From: Bacteroidota bacterium
Lineage (GTDB): Bacteria; Bacteroidota; Bacteroidia; 2-12-FULL-35-15
Length of the DNA stretch: 36,359 bases
Assembly: GCA_947479085.1 (NCBI GenBank)
Contig: CANJYB010000035.1
Span: forward strand, 1 to 36,359
Direction: 5' to 3'
Part shown: one piece after another, positions 4,034 to 35,731 of the stretch
Numbering within the stretch: the first letter of the stretch is position 1
Layout of the letters: every line of letters starts with the position of its first letter
Position numbers and translations under genes: made by a program
The notes under the pieces: generated by a model
What the model saw: only the letters and a program-made list of their open reading frames with translations
Database searches by the model: none
What the model was told of the DNA's origin: nothing

Positions 4034-5752
4034 ATGAAAAAAACTTTACAATTAATTACAGCTATAACAATTCTGTTTACTGCTGTTGAAAGCAAGGCTC
4101 AACTTGCTGACGGAAAACTTGCACCTGACTTTACATTTACTGATATTGCAGGCAACACACAACATTTGTACGCGCTTCTCGATTCCGGATTCACGACCTA
4201 TATTGATGTTTCAGCTGCCTGGTGCGGACCATGTTGGTCTTATCACAATACAGGAGCATTAGAGACCTTGTATAATACATATGGTCCAGGCGGAACCAAC
4301 GTGGTTAGGGTGCTTTACGTTGAAGGAGAACTAACAAATACAATTAATCAGCTTCATGGTATTACCGGTGCCGGAGGCGGGTATGCCGGTTCAACCCAGG
4401 GAGATTGGACCGCAGGAACTCCTTATCCAATGATTGACCTTTCAAGTTCTACACCTGGAGCAACCGCCTTTTTAGGAAGTTCCGGATATCAGATTGCTTA
4501 CTTTCCAACTGTTTATATGATCTGTCCTGACAGAACCATTACTCTTGTTGGGCAAGCCAATGTCACAAATTTATATGCAGCAAGAGCTTCCTGCGCAATT
4601 GCAGTTGTTGCAGACGATGCTCAATTAATGCACCCCATTACACTTGGTACAACAAACGATAATTTACAATCCTGCGATAGTGTTATTCCAACCTTCCGTT
4701 TAGGAAATGTTGGAACATCTGCTTTAACATCTGCAACCATTACCTATAAAGTAGACGGTGTAACCCAAAAAGTAAAAAACTGGACAGGTAATCTTGCTCC
4801 ATATAACAATACCTTGGTTACAAACGTTAAACTTGGAGGGCCAATAGCTGGTGGTCACACTATAACTGCTAGTGTTTCTAATCCCAATGGAGGCTCAGAC
4901 CCAACAGCCAATAACAATGCTACTACGGCTAATTTTGTTAAGTATAGCGGCACTGTGGTTCCTCTTGTTTCAGAATCTTTTGAAGCTTTCGGAATACCAT
5001 CCGCTTGGGCAATAGCAAATGGAGGGGGTGCTACTACCTGGTCAACAGCAAATGTTGGATTCAACTCTTCGAAAAGCGCGAAATTAGATTTCTACAATAT
5101 TTCTGCCGGAGATATCGATTGTTTTATTTTGGAGCCGATGTCGTTTTTTGGAACAACGGTTGATTCTTTAACTTTTGATATTTCCTATGTTCAATATTCA
5201 TCTACCGTAAACGATAAACTTGAGGTAGACGTGTCGACCAATTGCGGAGTTACCTGGGCGCCAAGGTACGTAAAAGTAGGGGCATCGTTATCTACCAATG
5301 GCACCAGTTATTTCACATCTGCCTATACACCAACTTCTGCATCGCAATGGAGAAAAGAAAGAGTTAATTTAAGTATGTATGCTGGTCAGAATGAGGTTTT
5401 AATCAGATTTAAAGGAGTGTCGGCACAAGGAAATTCTTTATATGTTGATAATATTAACTTTTCCTCCGTTACCGGAATTGATGAAACGTTAGATGTTTCA
5501 GGTGTTTCTGTATTTCCAAACCCAACTTCTGAAGACACACATGTTCGTTTTAATTTAACAGAAGGCGGCTACGTTTCCATAACCTTGGCAAATGAACTTG
5601 GACAAGAAGTAATTCATTCAGAACTTGGAAACTTGTCCTCTGGCTCTCAAAATTATTTGTTGAAAACCGATGGGTTGCCTAACGGGTTGTATTTTATGAG
5701 TATCAAAACCGCAAATGGTTTAATTACCAAAAAGGTCTCTGTAAATAAATAG
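4034..5752 (+). CDS. secreted thioredoxin-like protein with adhesin-type domains and T9SS sorting signal
   Basis: A 572-residue exported protein. It has a signal peptide (1 to about 22, 'ESKAQ'), then a thioredoxin/peroxiredoxin-like domain ('LAPDFTFTDIAG', 'AAWCGPCWSYHN' with Cys64 and Cys67) to about residue 190. A CARDB-like beta domain with 'TYKVDGVTQKVKNWTG' follows at about 200-300. A choice-of-anchor-J-like beta sandwich covers about 310-480, with 'VSTNCGVTWAPRY' and 'VLIRFKGVSAQGNSLYVDNI'. The C-terminal sorting domain starts at 'FPNPTSEDTHVRF' and ends 'KKVSVNK'. An extracellular thiol-disulfide role is plausible, but the substrate is unknown. The domain order is shared with the gene at 8339. 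Confidence 0.85.
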   Translation: MKKTLQLITAITILFTAVESKAQLADGKLAPDFTFTDIAGNTQHLYALLDSGFTTYIDVSAAWCGPCWSYHNTGALETLYNTYGPGGTNVVRVLYVEGELTNTINQLHGITGAGGGYAGSTQGDWTAGTPYPMIDLSSSTPGATAFLGSSGYQIAYFPTVYMICPDRTITLVGQANVTNLYAARASCAIAVVADDAQLMHPITLGTTNDNLQSCDSVIPTFRLGNVGTSALTSATITYKVDGVTQKVKNWTGNLAPYNNTLVTNVKLGGPIAGGHTITASVSNPNGGSDPTANNNATTANFVKYSGTVVPLVSESFEAFGIPSAWAIANGGGATTWSTANVGFNSSKSAKLDFYNISAGDIDCFILEPMSFFGTTVDSLTFDISYVQYSSTVNDKLEVDVSTNCGVTWAPRYVKVGASLSTNGTSYFTSAYTPTSASQWRKERVNLSMYAGQNEVLIRFKGVSAQGNSLYVDNINFSSVTGIDETLDVSGVSVFPNPTSEDTHVRFNLTEGGYVSITLANELGQEVIHSELGNLSSGSQNYLLKTDGLPNGLYFMSIKTANGLITKKVSVNK

Positions 5753-14101: not shown

Positions 14102-14660
14102 ACATAAAATAGTAGTGGCCATTACCGGAGCCAGCGGTGCCATTTATGCCAAAGTTCTTTTACAAAAACTTCAGCAACTTGCAGAACAGATAGAAACCGT
14201 TGGGGTGGTAATGAGCGATAATGCCAAAGATGTATGGAAATACGAACTGGAAAATACCGATTACCAGCAGCTGCCCTTTACCATTTACAACAAAAACGAT
14301 TTTTTTGCACCCTTTGCTTCCGGCTCTGCCAGATATAATACCATGATTATCTGCCCCTGCAGCATGGGAACTTTGGGACGCATTGCTTCCGGCATTTCAA
14401 ACGACCTTACTTCCCGCGCAGCGGATGTTATTTTAAAAGAAAGAAGAAAACTGATACTGGTTACCCGCGACACCCCTTTAAGTTTAATACATATTAATAA
14501 TATGAAAACCATTACCGAAGCTGGTGGAATTATTTGCCCTGCCAGCCCTTCCTTTTACAGCAAACCCAAAGATTTTGACGCCTTGGCTTCCACCGTTATA
14601 GACCGGGTGTTGGATTTGGCCGGTTTAGAACTACCCTCGTTTCGTTGGGGGGAGAAATAG
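14088..14660 (+). CDS. ubiX: UbiX-type flavin prenyltransferase
   Basis: A 190-residue flavoprotein. 'KIVVAITGASGAIYAKVLLQKL' (7-28) is the FMN-binding start of UbiX. 'IICPCSMGTLGRIASGISNDLTSRAADVILKERRKLILVTRDTPLSLIHINNM' carries the conserved core, and 'PASPSFYSKP' with 'VDRVLDLAGLE'-type text closes the family signature. The enzyme attaches a dimethylallyl group to FMN to make prenylated FMN, the cofactor of UbiD-type decarboxylases. No ubiD partner is in the window. The length is normal. The start overlaps the preceding porin-like gene by 14 bp. Confidence 0.95.
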   Translation: MNQNKHKIVVAITGASGAIYAKVLLQKLQQLAEQIETVGVVMSDNAKDVWKYELENTDYQQLPFTIYNKNDFFAPFASGSARYNTMIICPCSMGTLGRIASGISNDLTSRAADVILKERRKLILVTRDTPLSLIHINNMKTITEAGGIICPASPSFYSKPKDFDALASTVIDRVLDLAGLELPSFRWGEK

Positions 14661-14680
14661 CAGAACGCACAATATTGCCT

Positions 14681-14980
14681 AAAGAGACTTGTTTATTTAC
14701 AGAAATGTCGTTTCGTTTCTGAAAGTGTCGTTTCATTTCTGAAAGTGTCGTTTCATTTTTGAAAGTGTCGTTTCATTTCTGAAAATGTCGTTTCATTTCT
14801 GAAAGTGTCGTTTCATTTTTGAAAGTGTCGTTTCATTTCCGAAAATGTCGTTTCATTTCTGAAAGTGTCGTTTCGTTTTTGAAAGTATCGTTTCGTTTCT
14901 GAAAGTGTCGTTTCGTTTTTGAAAGTGTCGTTTCATTTCTAAAGAAGCTTGTTTATTTCTAAAGAGGCTTGTTTATTCTT
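14681..14980. repeat. tandem array of fifteen 20-bp units
   Basis: Exactly periodic at 20 bp. Twelve units at 14701-14940 follow the consensus GAAAGTGTCGTTTCATTTCT with few substitutions. One variant unit on the left (14681-14700) and two on the right (14941-14980) follow AAAGAGGCTTGTTTATTTCT. Each unit contains GAAA and TTTC half-sites, so units can pair with each other as hairpins. There are no spacers, so this is not a CRISPR array. No reading frame spans it. It starts 20 bp after the ubiX stop. Confidence 0.95.
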
Positions 14981-14991
14981 TAGGATAACTC

Positions 14992-15223
14992 TTGTCTAAA
15001 AAGACAATGCTATTCCGAACAGTCGAAACCCGTTTGTCTAAAAAGACAATACTATTCCGAAGAATCGGAACCTGTTTGTCTAAAAAGACAATGTTATTCC
15101 GAAGAGAAGGAACCCCTTTGCATAATAAGACAATGCCATTCCGAACAACCGGAACCTCTTTGTCTAAAAAGACAATGCCATTCCGAACGGTCGAAACCCG
15201 TTTGTCTAAAAAGACAATGGTTT
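14992..15223. repeat. tandem array of 42-bp units with paired hairpins
   Basis: Five full units and one partial unit begin at 14992, 15034, 15076, 15118, 15160 and 15202. Each unit starts with TTGTCTAAAAAGACAA (6-bp arms, 4-nt loop; unit 4 is degenerate). It then has a second dyad around TTCCGA...TCGGAA, best preserved in units 2 and 4. Because 42 is a multiple of three, the array keeps an open frame from 14992 to 15261 encoding 14-residue repeats (SKKTMLFRxxxTxL). I regard that frame as a by-product of the repeat. Confidence 0.93.
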
Positions 15224-15319
15224 TTAATAATGCAGAGGGTTATATTATTTATGGCCGGTAAGATTAACTAAACCCCTGTTTTCCGGGAATCCGAAATCGA
15301 ACATCCGAAATCCCAAATT

Positions 15320-18594: not shown

Positions 18595-18885
18595 CTATCC
18601 TTTGGAGTGCAGACGCAATTGACAGCTTAGAAAAGATTTTCAACTATTATTTTAATTTATCCGAGCAGAGTGCAGAGCGCAGAGCGCATAAGAACAGATA
18701 TTTTAGAAAAAGTTTCAACCCTTCGATTTGTTAACCAATACCAAATAGATGAAATTAATCCGGCTTATAGAAGAATAATTGTGAGACATTATAAGGTAGT
18801 TTACAAGGTAGAAAAACAAACTATTTTGATTTTGAATATTTTTGATACGAGACAAGACCCTTCTAAAAGTAAGATCGAAAAATAG
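18576..18885 (+). pseudogene. RelE/ParE-family toxin, frameshifted by a 7-bp tandem duplication
   Basis: From the ATG at 18576 the frame reads 'MEGKEITILWSADAIDSLEKIFNYYF' and then 'LSEQSAER', the start of a ParE fold. It then runs into nonsense and a stop. A second frame from about 18670 carries the rest: 'SAERIRTDILEKVSTLRF', 'YQIDEINPAYRRIIVRHYKVVYKVE', 'ILNIFDTRQDPSK', which is the conserved ParE C-terminal half. The break falls at three tandem heptamers (18665-18685). Removing one heptamer turns 310 bp into 303 bp, an exact 100-codon gene plus stop, and restores 'EQSAERIRTD'. The start overlaps the antitoxin by 19 bp. The frameshift could be a dead allele, a phase-variable state or an assembly error. 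Confidence 0.85.
18665..18685 (+). repeat. three tandem 7-bp units inside the toxin gene
   Basis: Units are GCAGAGT, GCAGAGC and GCAGAGC, followed by the partial match GCATAAG. The last two are identical and adjacent. A heptamer tract is not a multiple of three, so gain or loss of one unit switches the reading frame. Confidence 0.9.
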
Positions 18886-18978: not shown

Positions 18979-19887
18979 ATGTCAATACTAGTCAACAATA
19001 TTACAAAGCTGTACGATAAGCAAAAAGCATTGGATAATGTTTCGTTTGAAGTAAACACCGGTGAAATAGTTGGTTTTCTTGGTCCTAATGGTGCCGGTAA
19101 ATCAACAATGATGAAAATACTTACCTGTTTTATTCCTCAAACTTCCGGCTCTGCATCTGTATGCGGATATGATATTGCCGAAGAAAGCCTGGAGGTTCGC
19201 AAGAATGTGGGCTATCTTCCGGAGCACAATCCTTTGTACACCGAAATGTATATCAAGGAATATTTAGAATTTATTGCGGGTTTGCATAAACTTAAAAATG
19301 TAAAACAACGCATTGCTGAAATGATTGAAATGACCGGTCTTCAGGTAGAGCAGAAAAAGAAAATAGGAGCATTGTCCAAAGGTTACAGGCAGCGTGTAGG
19401 ATTAGCCCAGGCATTAATTCACGACCCTAAAGTATTGATACTGGATGAACCTACAACCGGACTTGACCCTAATCAACTGGCGGAAATAAGAAACCTGATT
19501 AAAGAAATCGGCAAACAAAAAACAGTAATGCTTTCTACGCATATTATGCAGGAAGTGGAAGCTATTTGTAACAGGGTGATTATAGTAAACAATGGTCAGA
19601 TTGTGGCAAACGACACCACTTCTGTTTTACAAAATTCGCAAGCGCAAAGCAAACATTTTATTACTGTTGAGTTCGATAAACAAACTTCTGCAGCTGCATT
19701 AAAAACAATAGCTGGTGTAGTGGATGCAAAGAACATCAAAGAAAGCATCTGGCAAATTGAAGCACAAACAGACAAAGATATCCGGCCCGATGTATTTCAG
19801 TTTGCAGTAAAGAATGGTTTGGCGGTGCTTACACTGCATAAGGAAGAACAAAAACTGGAAGATGTATTTAAAGAATTAACTAAATAG
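18979..19887 (+). CDS. gldA: gliding-motility-associated ABC transporter ATP-binding protein GldA
   Basis: A 302-residue ABC ATPase. Walker A is 'GPNGAGKS' (35-42), the Q-loop region is 'VGYLPEHNPLY', the signature is 'LSKGYRQRVGLAQAL' in place of LSGGQ, Walker B is 'VLILDEPTTGLDPNQ', and the switch His is in 'STHIMQE'. The 'GYLPEHNPLYTEM' text and the length fit GldA, which works with the membrane subunits GldF and GldG in gliding motility. In organisms that do not glide, the same ATPase serves as a general exporter subunit. GldF and GldG are not adjacent here. The N-terminal nucleotide-binding domain is complete, and the C-terminal ~80 residues form the usual accessory domain. Confidence 0.85.
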   Translation: MSILVNNITKLYDKQKALDNVSFEVNTGEIVGFLGPNGAGKSTMMKILTCFIPQTSGSASVCGYDIAEESLEVRKNVGYLPEHNPLYTEMYIKEYLEFIAGLHKLKNVKQRIAEMIEMTGLQVEQKKKIGALSKGYRQRVGLAQALIHDPKVLILDEPTTGLDPNQLAEIRNLIKEIGKQKTVMLSTHIMQEVEAICNRVIIVNNGQIVANDTTSVLQNSQAQSKHFITVEFDKQTSAAALKTIAGVVDAKNIKESIWQIEAQTDKDIRPDVFQFAVKNGLAVLTLHKEEQKLEDVFKELTK

Positions 19888-19894
19888 GCCCCAA

Positions 19895-19937
19895 TTAACC
19901 ACAAAGTTCACAAAGATTTTACGCAAAGGGCACAAAG
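19895..19937 (+). repeat. left 43-bp inverted repeat of the GxxExxY unit
   Basis: Rich in CACAAAG half-sites. Differs from the opposite arm at seven positions, four of which are a reciprocal TT/GG exchange at two places. Confidence 0.9.
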
Positions 19938-19940
19938 AAA

Positions 19941-20321
19941 GTGACGGAGAATGAAATAGCAAATAAAGTAATTGGTTTGGCAATTGACGTTCACAAAGCT
20001 CTTGGGCCTGGTCTTCTAGAAAGCGCATATAAAGAATGCCTTTATTATAAAATTATTCAGGCAGGAATGATTGCTGAAAAAGAAAAGGCAATGCCTTTGG
20101 TTTTTGAAGAAGTAAAATTAGAGTGCGGTTACAGGATGGATATTTTAGTGGAAAACAAAATAGTAATAGAAATTAAAAGCGTAGATACATTAAATGATAT
20201 TCACTTAGCTCAAACTCTTACTTATTTAAAACTAGGTAAATTCAAATTGGGGTTGCTTATTAATTTTAATGTTGTTTTACTCAAAGACGGACTTAAACGA
20301 GTTATTAATGGCTCTTTGTGA
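19941..20321 (+). CDS. GxxExxY family protein (PD-(D/E)XK nuclease-like)
   Basis: A 126-residue protein with the name-giving motif 'GPGLLESAY' (G24, E27, Y30). The core 'GYRMDILVENKIVIEIKSV' holds Asp67, Glu77 and Lys79 in the D...ExK order of PD-(D/E)XK nucleases, and 'AQTLTYLKLGKFKLGLLINF' is the following helix and strand. E27, D67, E77 and K79 would form the metal site if it is active. The family is widespread and its biological role is unknown. The start is GTG at 19941, directly after the left inverted repeat. There is no other upstream start in the frame. Base composition is AT-rich, like the surroundings. Confidence 0.9.
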   Translation: MTENEIANKVIGLAIDVHKALGPGLLESAYKECLYYKIIQAGMIAEKEKAMPLVFEEVKLECGYRMDILVENKIVIEIKSVDTLNDIHLAQTLTYLKLGKFKLGLLINFNVVLLKDGLKRVINGSL

Positions 20322-20356
20322 ACTTTGTGTAAAACCTTAGTGCCCTTTGTGGTTAA
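20314..20356 (-). repeat. right 43-bp inverted repeat of the GxxExxY unit
   Basis: Reverse complement of the left arm at 36 of 43 positions. It contains the stop codon of the GxxExxY gene and ends 25 bp before the M13 peptidase start. Confidence 0.9.
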
Positions 20357-20381: not shown

Positions 20382-22433
20382 ATGAAAAAAACACTTTTAT
20401 TAATTGCCTCAACAACCATTCTTTTTTCCTGTTCTAATACCGAAAAGAAATCAGAAACAACCACAACTTTCTCCGACCCAATAATTGAACACATTGATTC
20501 TTCTGTTTCTCCGAAAGAAGACTTTTTTAAGTTTGCAAACAATGCATGGTTCAAACAACATGCTATTCCGGCTTCGGAAGCTAATAACGGACTTTGGAAA
20601 ACCATCCAGGATACCTTGAACGATAACATTCGCAGGATATGCGAATCGGCTGCGGCAGATACAAAAGCCGGCAAAGGAAGTAACAAACAAAAGATTGGTG
20701 ATTTTTATTTCAGTGGTATGGATACCGTTTCCATTGATAAAGCAGGATATACCCCCCTAAAGGAAGAGTTCTCCAAAATAGATGCAATAAAAAACACTAC
20801 TGATTTACTGGCAGAGGTGGCTTATTTGGAAACCATGGGTGTGGAAACGATGTATGATTTTTCAATAAGTAAAGACGATAAAAACAGTGAACAATATGTG
20901 GTAACCCTTCACCAGGTTGGCTTGGGCCTTCCGGAGAAAGATTACTATTTTAATACCGATGCCCGCACCTCTTCTATTCGTGCAGAATATGTGAAACATA
21001 TTCAAGCTATGTTTCAATTGATAGGTGATGATGAAAAAACGGCTGCTAAAAAAGCGGACAACATTATGAAGCTGGAAACAACCATTGCAAAAAGTTCTAG
21101 GAAAATGGAGGACCTACGGGACCCTTACAAGAACTATAATAAAATGTCGGTGGCACAGGTAAATAAGTTAACTCCTTCTATTAAATGGGAGGAAACCTTA
21201 AAAATGTTAGGATTGAACGCACCGGTAGATTCTATTGTTGTTGGGCAGCCAGAGTTCTATACAGCACTGGAGACCAATTTAAAAAAGACTTCTGTTGACG
21301 ATTGGAAAACCTATCTGAAATGGAGTGTGCTAACCCGCTATGCTTCTCAATTAAGTAAAGATATTTATAAGGAAGATTTCAATTTTTATTCAACTGTGAT
21401 GAGCGGAGTGAAAGTGCAAAAACCCCGCTGGAAAAAAATTGTAACTGCTACCGACCGCTCTCTGGGCGACCTCGTTGGGCAGATATATGTTGAGGAATAT
21501 TGTCCGAAAGGAACCAAGGAAAAGCTTGCTGAAATAGGAAACAGCATCAGAAATGTATATGCTGAACATATAAAAGCATTGGACTGGATGAGCGATGTGA
21601 CCAAGGAAAAAGCCTTGCGTAAACTGAATACAATTAATATGAAGGTGGGCTATCCTGATAAATGGAAAGATCTTTCCTCTATAGAAATAAGCAGGGACAG
21701 CTATTGCCGAAACGTAATGAACATAAGGAAATGGCAATACAATTATATGCTTAACAAATACGGCAAGCCTGTAGACCATACCGAATGGGACATGGAACCA
21801 CAAACGTATAATGCTTATTACGACCCTACCAATAATGAAATAGTGGTTCCTGCCTGCAACATCATTGTTCCGGGATTTGAAGGCCGCATGCCGGATGATG
21901 CTATACTGTATGGAATAATCGGTGGTTCTACTTTTGGTCATGAAATTACACATGGTTTTGACGACCAGGGAAGCCTGTATGATGAGAAAGGAAACCTTCG
22001 CGACTGGTGGACAAAAGAAGACCGAAGCAAGTTTGTAGCCAAAACAAAACGTATTGTTCGCCAGTTCAATAATTATGTGGTGCTGGATAGCTTACACCTG
22101 AAAGGAGCAAACACACAGGGCGAAAACATTGCCGACCTTGGTGGTGTAATCATGGGGCTGGAAGCATTTAAGAAAACAAAACAAGGACAAAGTAACGAAA
22201 AGATAGATGGCTATAAACCCGAACAACGTTATTTCCTTGCTTATGCTTATGCCTGGATGGTTCAGTCTACCGATGCCGCACTTGCAAAACAGGTAATGAG
22301 CAACGTGCATGCACCTCCTGCGTTTCGTGTTCTCGGGCCGCTGTCAAACATGGAAGAGTTTTACAAAGCTTTTGATGTAAAACCGGGAGACAAGATGTAC
22401 AGAGAGGATAGTGTTAGGGTGAAGATTTGGTAG
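20382..22433 (+). CDS. M13 family (neprilysin/PepO-like) zinc metallopeptidase, lipoprotein
   Basis: A 683-residue endopeptidase. A lipoprotein signal with Cys17 ('TTILFSCSN') anchors it to an envelope membrane. The N-terminal M13 domain begins 'EDFFKFANNAWFKQHAIPASEANNG'. The catalytic domain has 'NAYYDPTNNEIVVPA', the zinc motif 'FGHEITHGFDDQG' (His520, Glu521, His524) and 'ENIADLGG' (Glu581 as third ligand, Asp585). The C-terminal 'RVLGPLSNMEEFYKAFDVKPGD' and final W are family hallmarks. It degrades oligopeptides in the periplasm or at the surface. The length is normal. It is separated from the convergent lipoprotein gene by a palindrome. Confidence 0.95.
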   Translation: MKKTLLLIASTTILFSCSNTEKKSETTTTFSDPIIEHIDSSVSPKEDFFKFANNAWFKQHAIPASEANNGLWKTIQDTLNDNIRRICESAAADTKAGKGSNKQKIGDFYFSGMDTVSIDKAGYTPLKEEFSKIDAIKNTTDLLAEVAYLETMGVETMYDFSISKDDKNSEQYVVTLHQVGLGLPEKDYYFNTDARTSSIRAEYVKHIQAMFQLIGDDEKTAAKKADNIMKLETTIAKSSRKMEDLRDPYKNYNKMSVAQVNKLTPSIKWEETLKMLGLNAPVDSIVVGQPEFYTALETNLKKTSVDDWKTYLKWSVLTRYASQLSKDIYKEDFNFYSTVMSGVKVQKPRWKKIVTATDRSLGDLVGQIYVEEYCPKGTKEKLAEIGNSIRNVYAEHIKALDWMSDVTKEKALRKLNTINMKVGYPDKWKDLSSIEISRDSYCRNVMNIRKWQYNYMLNKYGKPVDHTEWDMEPQTYNAYYDPTNNEIVVPACNIIVPGFEGRMPDDAILYGIIGGSTFGHEITHGFDDQGSLYDEKGNLRDWWTKEDRSKFVAKTKRIVRQFNNYVVLDSLHLKGANTQGENIADLGGVIMGLEAFKKTKQGQSNEKIDGYKPEQRYFLAYAYAWMVQSTDAALAKQVMSNVHAPPAFRVLGPLSNMEEFYKAFDVKPGDKMYREDSVRVKIW

Positions 22434-22442
22434 TTGTTGTTT

Positions 22443-22526
22443 TTCAACACAGAGAACACAGAGAATACTGAGTTTCACGGAGCATCCTCTGTGAAACTCT
22501 TTTAATTTTGTGTTCTCTGTGTTGAA
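22443..22526. repeat. 84-bp imperfect palindrome between convergent genes
   Basis: Outer arms of 18 bp are perfect (22443-22460 and 22509-22526). A 9/9 mismatched internal loop follows, then inner arms of 13 bp with one mismatch (22470-22482 and 22487-22499) and a CATC loop. The CACAGAG-rich text resembles the CACAAAG-rich arms around the GxxExxY gene. It may act as a terminator for both genes. It also encodes the last codons of the minus-strand lipoprotein. Confidence 0.92.
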
Positions 22527-23192: not shown

Positions 23193-23671
23193 GCAGTATT
23201 ATTTTAATTGGTTAGTTAAAACAAACTCCTTTTTTACCCATTTTCTATCCTCTTTGGTTAATTGCATTTTTGTGCAATGCTCCACCGAACCTTTGCGGGC
23301 GCTTTGCTCAAAAATGCAATGTGTCAAATTGTCTTGTTTTTTTTATTTCCTTATGTTTTTGGGCGACAGGAGCAAACAAATTAACTCCTTCCAATAAAGA
23401 GAATAGAAGTTCATCGGCAGGTTCTGCATAGAGTTTGTTCTCTCAGAATTCCTTTTTTCTTTCTACTTTGCATATGTTTTCACAAAAAGAAAGCAGCTTT
23501 TTTGAAAAAGCGGGAATATAAGACCCAACAAAGTTTGTTTTTTTTAAACTTTTTGAAATGGTCGTTTTAGGAAATGAGTGGGGTGTTTTGGGAAATGAAT
23601 GGGTTTTTTAGAACCCGAAATTTTTGCGTTTTTCTGTTTTTTGAGGCTTTTTTAAGGTTCTTTTTAGTACT
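23193..23671. other. intergenic region with no recognised gene
   Basis: No credible coding frame is seen in ~480 bp. It holds a 12-bp inverted repeat (listed separately) and, near 23555-23610, two degenerate copies of a ~21-bp motif built on GGAAATGA and T-runs. The rest is T-rich. Confidence 0.6.
23261..23320. repeat. 12-bp perfect inverted repeat with 36-nt GC-richer loop
   Basis: ATTGCATTTTTG at 23261-23272 pairs with CAAAAATGCAAT at 23309-23320. The enclosed segment (ACCGAACC, GCGGGCGC) is more GC-rich than the flanks. This could be a small interspersed palindrome or a structured RNA. Confidence 0.7.
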
Positions 23672-23807
23672 GAATTTAATTTATCTTTGTGCGTATACTC
23701 AATAAAAGTTTATTTTTTCAATTGTTACCTGGAGGTAACAATTTTTTTAGCAGAAAAAACCTACTGAAACTATTACCCAGTATGGTTTAGGAGTAAATTA
23801 TTTAAAA
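23672..23807 (+). promoter_or_regulatory. leader region, copy 1: promoter, terminator-like hairpin, conserved pre-start segment
   Basis: A -7 element TATCTTTG (23682-23689) is followed 38 bp later by a perfect hairpin (next entry) and then by a conserved stretch ending TTTAAAAATGAA at the ATG (23808). The same arrangement recurs at 24467-24603 with nearly the same spacing (38 and 127 bp, against 38 and 126 here) and high identity in the promoter, the hairpin and the last ~30 bases. A hairpin with a T-run between promoter and gene resembles a transcription attenuator. A short RNA ending there is also possible. Confidence 0.65.
23720..23748 (+). terminator. terminator-like hairpin in leader copy 1
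   Basis: AATTGTTACC (23720-23729), loop TGGA, GGTAACAATT (23734-23743), running into a T-run. The 10-bp stem is perfect. It lies about 30 bp beyond the -7 element, so it would act on the nascent leader. Confidence 0.7.
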
Positions 23808-24419: not shown

Positions 24420-24466
24420 GAAGAGTCCATTGAAAAAACGAATTATCAATACTCCTTATGTATTCT

Positions 24467-24603
24467 GAATTTAATTTACCTTTGTGCATATAATCAATAA
24501 AAGTTTATTTGTTCAATTGTTACCTGGAGGTAACAATTTTTTAAGTACAAAAAAACTCACTCAAACTCTTACTCCGTATGGCTTAGGAGTAAAATATTTA
24601 AAA
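24467..24603 (+). promoter_or_regulatory. leader region, copy 2
   Basis: Near-duplicate of the leader at 23672-23807. It has a -7 element TACCTTTG (24477-24484), a hairpin AATTGTTACC-TGGA-GGTAACAATT (24515-24538) with a T-run, and the conserved pre-start segment ending at the ATG at 24604. It lies 48 bp after the first gene and now precedes only a 15-codon remnant and then the M1 peptidase gene at 24674, which it may also drive. Confidence 0.65.
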
Positions 24604-35417: not shown

Positions 35418-35518
35418 TTTTACCCCCTTCTCTGCCTTATACGCAAGTGCTGCTATGCCTGCACTTCAAAGCTTTAGTTTATATTTAGCATAAATTTGTT
35501 AATTGTATTTTTCATTAT

Positions 35519-35731
35519 TTAGTACCCTTTTATAACTCCTGCCTCCATTCTCATGAATCCGGGTCCAGCTCTCTTAACTCCTGGTCCCGTTCTCATGACT
35601 CCCGGTCCCAATTTCATGAATCCGGGTCCAGCTTTCATAACTCCTGGTCCCACTCTCATGAATCCGGGTCCAGCTTTCATGACTCCTGGTTCCATTCTTA
35701 TGATTCCTGCCCCCATTCTCTTGTTTTTCAT
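35519..35731 (-). CDS. small Gly/Met/Pro-rich heptad-repeat protein (tentative)
   Basis: A 70-residue frame with an ATG in an A-rich, AGGAG-containing upstream region (35732-35760). The product is 'MKNKRMGAGIIRMEPG' followed by seven-residue repeats of the type (VF)MKxGPG and an end 'VIKGY'. The 21-bp DNA repeat keeps both strands open. The opposite frame (35553-35789) encodes MNPGPAL-type repeats. The minus strand is favoured because of its start context and the co-directional neighbour. No family is recognised, and it may not be translated. Confidence 0.4.
   Translation of the reverse strand: MKNKRMGAGIIRMEPGVMKAGPGFMRVGPGVMKAGPGFMKLGPGVMRTGPGVKRAGPGFMRMEAGVIKGY
35529..35717. repeat. tandem array of nine 21-bp units
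   Basis: Unit starts are 35529, 35550, 35571, 35592, 35613, 35634, 35655, 35676 and 35697. The typical unit is TTCATGAATCCGGGTCCAGCT, with substitutions that alternate between two subtypes (AATCCGGGTCCAGCT and ACTCCTGGTCCC-). Units are contiguous. Confidence 0.9.

Follow-up and report, generated by a model that had tools for sequence, protein, structure and literature searches.

In the window, by which we mean the whole stretch of 36,359 nucleotides analysed here, a small gene of the GxxExxY family is enclosed by two inverted arms built of 7-nt units. Such arms are coupled to genes of this family, their units point inward at regular spacing, copies of them are dispersed through the genomes, the element is present in some relatives and absent from others at the same site, and two letters of the unit tend to switch together with two residues of the protein. 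Taken as a whole statement, we consider it rather probable that this is a cognate nuclease-repeat element that works in the manner of the REPIN-RAYT systems.

The gene and its arms in the window

The left arm (19895..19938, plus strand) consists of TTAAC followed by four inward units in the spacing unit-2-unit-6-unit-2-unit, these being CACAAAG (19900-19906), CACAAAG (19909-19915), CGCAAAG (19922-19928) and CACAAAG (19931-19937). The right arm (20313..20356) is inverted, and its four units on the minus strand, also reading inward, are CACAAAG (20345-20351), CACTAAG (20336-20342), CACAAAG (20323-20329) and CACAAAG (20314-20320). Each arm is 44 nt long, with 37 of the 44 positions matching (a sequence-only reading of the window had given 43 bp and 36/43), and both have TTAACC at the outer end, as that reading had stated. 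Between them lies the GxxExxY gene (19941..20321, plus strand), which encodes 126 residues, with Ala at residue 7 and Ile at residue 122. The arms fit the gene as closely as had been claimed: the GTG start at 19941 is 3 bases past the last base of the left arm, and the TGA stop (20319-20321) falls inside the right arm. The gene is flanked by an ABC transporter ATPase (18979..19887, plus strand), which we name as gldA type, and an M13 peptidase (20382..22433, plus strand).

This pair of arms is the longest inverted repeat among those listed for the window. Its strict alignment score is 53, compared with a 99.9% point of 30.7 for shuffled sequence (665 shuffles over 133 loci), and a chance origin is rejected on these grounds; with looser gap costs the margin is weak, the locus scoring 69 and the highest of 200 shuffles 64. 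The earlier claim that relatives of the arms occur elsewhere in the window is borne out by a hairpin without a gene at 22443..22526, which has 40-nt arms, a 4-nt loop and a single-stranded DNA folding z of -12. Its unit is of a different type, CACAGAG, which is also the unit of a paralogous GxxExxY gene (L003) in the same genome.

The protein belongs to the family that had been proposed, with scores well above the cut-offs for both TIGR04256 (135.2 bits against a cut-off of 35, E 1.2e-39) and PF13366 (131.6 bits against 22, E 2.3e-38). Of TIGR04256 and TIGR02436, it matches only the former. The residues D67, E77 and K79, named earlier as the retained catalytic core, are indeed kept: in an alignment of 29 proteins that includes the window's, D67 and K79 never vary, E77 is present in 90% or more of the sequences, and Q91-x3-Y95 is conserved. 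QxxxY is a signature of RecB-like nucleases. AlphaFold generates a confident model (pLDDT 94.2), for which the best match among solved folds is SSO0001 (4ic1), which we take to be a Cas4, with a Foldseek E of 2.1e-3 and no Foldseek match below 0.001. VIA-align superimposes the model on 4ic1 with Z 9.8 (103 residues aligned, rmsd 4.6, 21% identity), and gives Z 7.2 for a named Cas4 (4r5q) and Z 7.3 for archaeal Hjc, values near 7 being ones that can reflect a common arrangement. A profile search of the PDB sequences returned a single match at E 0.37, and the best Cas4 profile in PADLOC is a weak match (E 0.0076). Judged from the model, the protein has a PD-(D/E)XK fold of the Cas4/RecB kind, and it is predicted to be a nuclease.

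GxxExxY genes are present in 53 of the 59 relatives searched, with up to 20 copies per genome, and are found in other phyla too. The genome of the window (G000) has five, each with inverted arms and each with a different unit: CACAAAG at the window locus, CGCAGAG, CACAGAG, CACATAG, and TACGAAT at the divergent fifth gene.

Three other features of the window are recorded here as separate observations. An open frame at about 18655-18885 resembles a RelE/ParE-type toxin and starts in text similar to the arm units (GCAGAGCGCAGAGCGCA). Two 93-nt copies, 91% identical and containing the palindrome AATTGTTACCTGGAGGTAACAATT, lie at 23670-23762 and 24465-24557, each just upstream of a gene, and are possibly a common operator. 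Tandem repeats of 20, 42 and 21 nt are found at 14652-15266 and 35506-35723.

Arms and gene-less copies across genomes

For each locus, the upstream flank was aligned with the reverse-complemented downstream flank, and arms were called at a score of at least 30. The GxxExxY genes tested come mainly from Bacteroidota. The first set of loci came from G000, its relatives, contigs of named genomes and two viral contigs, of which 133 of 135 were usable, the other two being without flank. Inverted arms were found at 98 of these 133 GxxExxY loci; of 181 neighbouring genes taken from these loci, 6 have them, and the idea that the arms are generic intergenic DNA is rejected. The sequence-only reading had proposed to test for such an association. 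Cross pairs taken from different loci reach a score of 30 in 8.7% of cases. A second set, drawn from relatives in 46 genomes, has arms at 112 of 133 usable loci, one of its 134 loci being left out; 79 of the loci were new, and 64 of these have arms. With the 54 loci common to both sets counted once, arms are present at 162 of 212 distinct GxxExxY loci. Contigs of named genomes show them less often than close relatives do (49/78), and several loci in the relatives' set that score below 30 still show recognisable units. Duplicates were left out (L038, which is the same gene as L002, and L092, the same place as L134), as were two fragments of one gene in genome G087.

Units were scored as CRCNNA[GTA] within the aligned arms, since calling the commonest 7-mer mis-called some loci through AT-rich words. 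The consensus is CRCNNAK, 7 nt long, with a spacing of mostly 8-10 nt and most commonly 9 nt. Across 222 loci, units matching CRCNNA[GT] read inward 613 and 612 times and outward 198 and 176 times. The unit sequence varies from gene to gene, and in other unit families the outer ends are TTTACC, TTCTCG or GGAACG in place of TTAACC. TTAA is therefore not a general target duplication.

The same layout extends to distant groups. GxxExxY genes are rare in cyanobacteria (7 of 39 genomes), and arms are found at 9 of 11 further cyanobacterial loci and at all four genes of Anabaena catenula, with units as dissimilar as CGCAGAG, CGCGAAG and AGGATGTACAGGAT. Going by record titles, arms scoring at least 30 are present at 1/1 planctomycete, 1/3 acidobacterial and 1/2 verrucomicrobial loci, at 2/2 loci of a genome titled Rhizobium, at 3/8 ignavibacterial loci (with two more at 29 that have visible units) and at 0/1 from Chlorobi, where one more locus is without flank; these records are all metagenome-assembled genomes, in which binning errors are possible. 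We are highly confident that the gene and its two arms form a single functional unit.

Copies without a gene are abundant. A two-unit pattern has 1224 matches in the 59 genomes, against 55 for the reversed control. The density of unit pairs, with the arms of genes counted, is 6.0 per Mb in genomes that have GxxExxY genes and 0.84 per Mb in those that do not, and it correlates with GxxExxY copy number (Spearman 0.64, or 0.73 in 23 genomes of separate families). The six genomes that lack GxxExxY together have 13 matches and 6 control matches in 15.4 Mb. The arm sequence occurs both with and without a gene between its copies, which the earlier reading had proposed to look for: paired hairpins without a gene are found in G000 (contigs C24 and C14), G015, G005, G049 and G050, with arms built like those of the window and loops that range from a few nt up to about 30. 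All four gene-less copies tested fold as single-stranded DNA with z between -5 and -12.

In G000 there are 55 unit-pair matches at 36 sites, of which 7 have a plus match followed by a minus match under the strict pattern, so that single or decayed arms are frequent too. Most arm sequence in this genome is thus literally away from its five GxxExxY genes, an outcome that the sequence-only reading had counted against itself; it is to be expected if the gene-less hairpins are a non-autonomous form. The left arm of the window has matches in 13 of the 59 genomes, most of them in G015 (13), G005 (8) and G000 (7); in G000 and in G015, two of these matches are accounted for by the arms of the gene itself. 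At the window's site G005 has no GxxExxY gene; CACAAAG hairpins occur several times in its genome, and none of the five GxxExxY genes examined in it, out of six, has CACAAAG arms. Similarly, G000 contains a large family of gene-less CGCAAAG hairpins (for example L274, L276, L279 and L280), and pure CGCAAAG arms are found at none of its five genes. Over 36 genomes, with the genes' own arms removed, the proportion of dispersed units that end in T is only loosely related to the proportion of gene arms whose units end in T (rho 0.35; p 0.019 by permutation), in a weak test with one clear outlier (G014). The pattern for the rare unit CACATAG is at background (63 matches and 66 in the control), a comparison that is uninformative; the arms of the corresponding gene (L004) have a 1-nt spacer, outside the reach of the pattern. 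It may be added that in G000 the end of contig C4 (L283) and the start of contig C5 (L284) carry tandem arrays of CACAGAG-type hairpins that resemble each other, and the assembly may break at these arrays.

The site of the window was compared within the genus. A search of its 36 genomes located the M13 protein in 33, and 29 loci were examined, a number that excludes one partial M13 gene (L245). The gldA-type gene precedes the M13 gene, within 0.7 kb, in all 29. The element with its gene is present at this site in two species only, G000 and G015. At the same site, G004 has one lone arm of the same build as the window's and nothing else, G018 has a lone arm of CACAGAT type, the near relatives G034 and G012 have only 10-12 bp, and G005 and G014 have a different two-gene module (L217 and L218), which looks toxin-antitoxin-like. 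Arms and gene at one locus in all relatives, with no copies elsewhere, had been named as the outcome that would speak against a mobile element; the gene is found at 2 of 29 sites, and there are many copies elsewhere.

The two gene-bearing copies look to have been inherited together, because identity between G000 and G015 is similar for GxxExxY (93.7%) and gldA (94.4%). In a tree of the two neighbour genes, G000, G015, G004, G005, G014, G034 and G012 group together in a clade whose inner branches are weakly supported, and both a single gain in this clade with later losses and two gains fit. One gene-less copy is at the same orthologous place in G000, G015 and G005. Presence and absence at the gldA-M13 site, together with this shared copy, imply that the elements come and go, slowly. 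The intergenic sequences are too diverged for alignment to define the join at the target site, and TTAA is itself palindromic. On the claim of a minimal mobile element, then, a repeat-associated life cycle is strongly supported by the arms at most genes, the dispersed gene-less copies and the insertion in only some relatives. Mobility is plausible, and the alignment of gldA-M13 regions did yield sites without the element as foreseen; movement was not seen, the predicted TTAA duplication was not established, one copy is shared by three species and the G000 and G015 copies look co-inherited.

Protein residues that change with the units

If the protein reads the units, its residues and the unit letters are expected to change together. 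On the protein tree, unit letters change far less often than when shuffled: 3 changes against 37.5 at position 7, 17 against 53 at position 2, and 26 against 55 at position 5. Such a pattern, in which unit type follows the protein tree, could be co-inheritance alone, and for this reason a test on path-disjoint pairs was done. The tree (a quick FastTree) contains 218 proteins, 159 of them with callable units, four duplicate loci being skipped. The closest pairs with a difference in a single unit letter were taken from it in such a way that their paths are disjoint, and the protein column that switches along with the letter was sought.

For unit position 5 (A/G), the column is residue 7, which is Ala/Ser or Thr and lies in the first (N-terminal) helix: of 23 independent pairs, 16 switch in the same direction and 1 in the opposite direction, and the next-best columns reach 8 net. 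For unit position 2 the column is residue 122, Ile or Val in the last strand, with 14 of 16 pairs in the same direction, none opposite, and a next-best column of 9 net. When evolution of the letter is simulated along this tree independently of the protein, the top-scoring column out of 126 attains the observed value in 0 of 992 runs for position 5 and in 0 of 692 for position 2; scored as a ratio to the number of pairs, the figures are 1/992 and 0/692, and an earlier, smaller run gave 1/140 and 0/88. Residue preferences were calculated with the pair left out, yet come from the rest of the same tree, a feature that the simulations share.

Over the labelled loci, Thr7 is found with G 63 times, A 3 times and T 4 times, Ala7 with A 20 and G 2 times, and Ser7 with A 34, G 17 and T 2 times; Ile122 accompanies A 42 and G 6 times, and Val122 accompanies G 60 and A 26 times. 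The rule was fixed beforehand and applied to 27 unused loci, and was right in 11 of the 16 that could be scored for position 5 (11 of the 27 could not) and in 9 of 13 for position 2 (14 could not). This hold-out includes 11 cyanobacterial loci whose arms, though not their residues, had been viewed before the rule was written. Split by residue after the fact, it is right for Thr7 in 6/6, Ala/Gly7 in 4/4 and Ser7 in 1/6, and for Ile122 in 4/4, Ala122 in 1/1 and Val122 in 4/8; all five misses at position 5 are Ser7 and all four at position 2 are Val122. The hold-out thus agrees in part: it supports Thr, Ala and Ile as signals, with Ser7 and Val122 ambiguous. From these sequence comparisons, recognition of the units by the GxxExxY protein is supported, and it would presumably involve direct contact.

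Co-switching points to recognition and not to its purpose, which leaves a place for another explanation: the arms could be operators or stem-loops of the gene itself, with a protein that autoregulates or binds its own mRNA, and copies without a gene would serve as decoys or be what is left of decayed loci. The units do abut the start and sit inside the stop region, no movement was observed, and the gene-less copy at one site in three species is in keeping with such a role. Autoregulation, however, needs neither four units per side in inverted order nor paired hairpins without genes in many places, unit pairs scale with the number of genes, and the catalytic residues are conserved. We regard this explanation as unlikely, while taking it seriously.

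Alternative readings and known systems

A nuclease gene is not required for the layout, since the layout is also found around a second family. Among the neighbour genes that have arms, 5 of 6 at a score of at least 30, and 5 of 8 at a score of at least 28, are four-helix-bundle (S23-type, TIGR02436) genes, which lie between inverted arrays at L159:1445-1774, L172:1255-1632, L179:1251-1622, and L207:1569-1961 and 4065-4424. This family is present in 57 of the 59 genomes. Taking the best locus from each of 30 genomes (L437-L466), arms of the same design are found at 24, cross pairs reaching the threshold in 11.4%, and the units are of the types GAGATNT, GTTAGTT and AGTATCAGG. A layout common to two unrelated proteins argues for a common logic, and leaves room for the hairpins to be the mobile part, moved by other machinery of the host or of an element, with the enclosed gene as cargo or as a helper that stabilises the hairpin. 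The CACAAAG hairpins of G005, whose examined GxxExxY genes have no such arms, fit this as well. Five of the six GxxExxY-less genomes, however, do have four-helix-bundle genes, and CRC-type pairs are near background in all six, so that these genes alone bring no CRC-type repeats; and the co-switching of residues and units couples the GxxExxY protein to the repeats. We therefore think it decidedly unlikely that the gene is a passenger or a mere helper of hairpins moved by other machinery.

A role in defence or addiction, in which the nuclease attacks DNA that lacks or bears the arrays (restriction, or distinction of self from non-self), appears very improbable. The PD-(D/E)XK fold is common to restriction enzymes and Cas4, and there are the weak Cas4 matches in PADLOC, the best of them at the E value given above. 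Against this, the direct neighbours are the ABC ATPase and the M13 peptidase, and of eight neighbouring proteins PADLOC matches only that ATPase and a polymerase-like protein, matches that in our reading are due to shared ATPase or polymerase domains. With no convincing PADLOC model, an anti-phage system is rejected. Equally little is expected of an IVS-like RNA element, whose transcript arms would form a processed stem, the protein acting on the RNA hairpin. For the IVS of Coxiella, an RNA stem is described whose loop carries an S23 ORF, preceded by tandem GACAGAT heptamers (PMC4990558), but the window locus lies between protein genes and not in rRNA, and many fold neighbours of the protein are DNA nucleases. 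Carriage by phages or plasmids is rejected, since tblastn with the window protein gave no match in 50,697 phage records and matches in 8 of 72,556 plasmid records, and GxxExxY genes were found on 2 viral contigs.

The nuclease-repeat element that we favour would work as follows. It would consist of one gene and its two arms, the gene-bearing form being autonomous. The product would be a small PD-(D/E)XK nuclease directed to the heptamers in the arms around its own gene. Two or more positions of the unit would be read, with residue 7 of the N-terminal helix and residue 122 of the last strand doing the reading. As each GxxExxY lineage would have its own unit, several nuclease-repeat pairs could coexist in one genome, each independent of the others. 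Hairpins that share these arms but lack a gene would be non-autonomous members acted on in trans. They would probably be attacked as single strands in folded form, or as cruciforms, when replication exposes them, and a cut that is then repaired or copied would let the hairpins spread or be maintained. We infer that the target is DNA rather than RNA, that contact is direct, and that cleavage and mobilisation take place.

The closest parallel is REPIN-RAYT (also TnpAREP or 'REPtron'), where a dedicated endonuclease gene is described beside the same repeats, with separate flavours in a genome, one per gene (PMC3116915, PMC8266576). Dispersed inverted repeat pairs, predicted hairpins of single-stranded DNA and several copies are seen here too. 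The RAYT enzyme, however, is an HUH (Y1) tyrosine transposase, whereas the GxxExxY protein is of PF13366 with a PD-(D/E)XK fold; and REPs are described as palindromes of 20-40 bp, mostly with GTAG or CGTC tags (PMC3733652), whereas here each arm strings together 7-nt units at intervals of about 9 nt, the two arms being inverted. Both the enzyme and the repeat design differ, and the nuclease-repeat element would be unrelated to REPIN-RAYT, with a working logic that is like theirs if our reading is right.

Other systems share single features. S23/IVS and TIGR02436 loci have a small single gene, heptamers beside the ORF in Coxiella and, in the TIGR02436 loci examined here, the inverted-array layout, but an unrelated protein family and other unit sequences. 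Cas4/RecB nucleases share the fold, D67, E77, K79 and Q91-x3-Y95, but the GxxExxY protein has only 126 residues and matches Cas4 profiles weakly. S23-type genes (23S_rRNA_IVP) are described beside Cas4 or Cas6 at cas loci (PMC3936711). As to a CRISPR-cas context around the window gene, the eight neighbouring proteins gave only a weak DEDDh match (E 5e-4), in the polymerase-like protein. MITEs are likewise short, dispersed, gene-less inverted-repeat elements, and, as for DNA transposons, relatives without the element are found at the gldA-M13 site; the difference is that here there is no transposase and no established target-site duplication. TAACTGA and other heptamer arrays, described from intergenic regions of Beggiatoaceae, Bacteroidetes and cyanobacteria, resemble the present arrays in being intergenic, built of 7-nt units and spread across distant phyla, and their author raised the possibility of a mobile protein that binds the repeats (PMC4679880). 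They are direct repeats, and the excerpted text describes no inverted arms around a gene and identifies no such protein (PMC4679880).

GxxExxY proteins themselves appear in the excerpted literature as listed or labelled items, in a CRISPR-RT annotation and in a gene table of an algal virus, and those excerpts assign them no role. Within a literature search confined to sources other than subscription journals and preprints, the matches listed contain no description of an inverted-heptamer layout around a gene, and 'PDDEXK_3' gave no match.

A broader picture is plausible but held tentatively. Many GxxExxY lineages would each use a private heptamer, read through a small code in which residue 7 goes with position 5 and residue 122 with position 2, and propagate their cognate hairpins within genomes; the four-helix-bundle S23 genes, in elements of the same inverted-array design, would be either another engine, unrelated to the first, or cargo. 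This would link the IVS, orphan heptamer arrays and GxxExxY.

The co-switching of residues and letters turns a protein labelled 'function unknown' into one that can be tested at the bench, with named residues and named DNA. A protein of 126 residues that reads a 7-nt unit by a residue code would be of interest for DNA recognition. If cutting or copying follows, GxxExxY elements would have solved the REPIN-RAYT problem a second time, independently, and a large class of repeats between genes would have its explanation.
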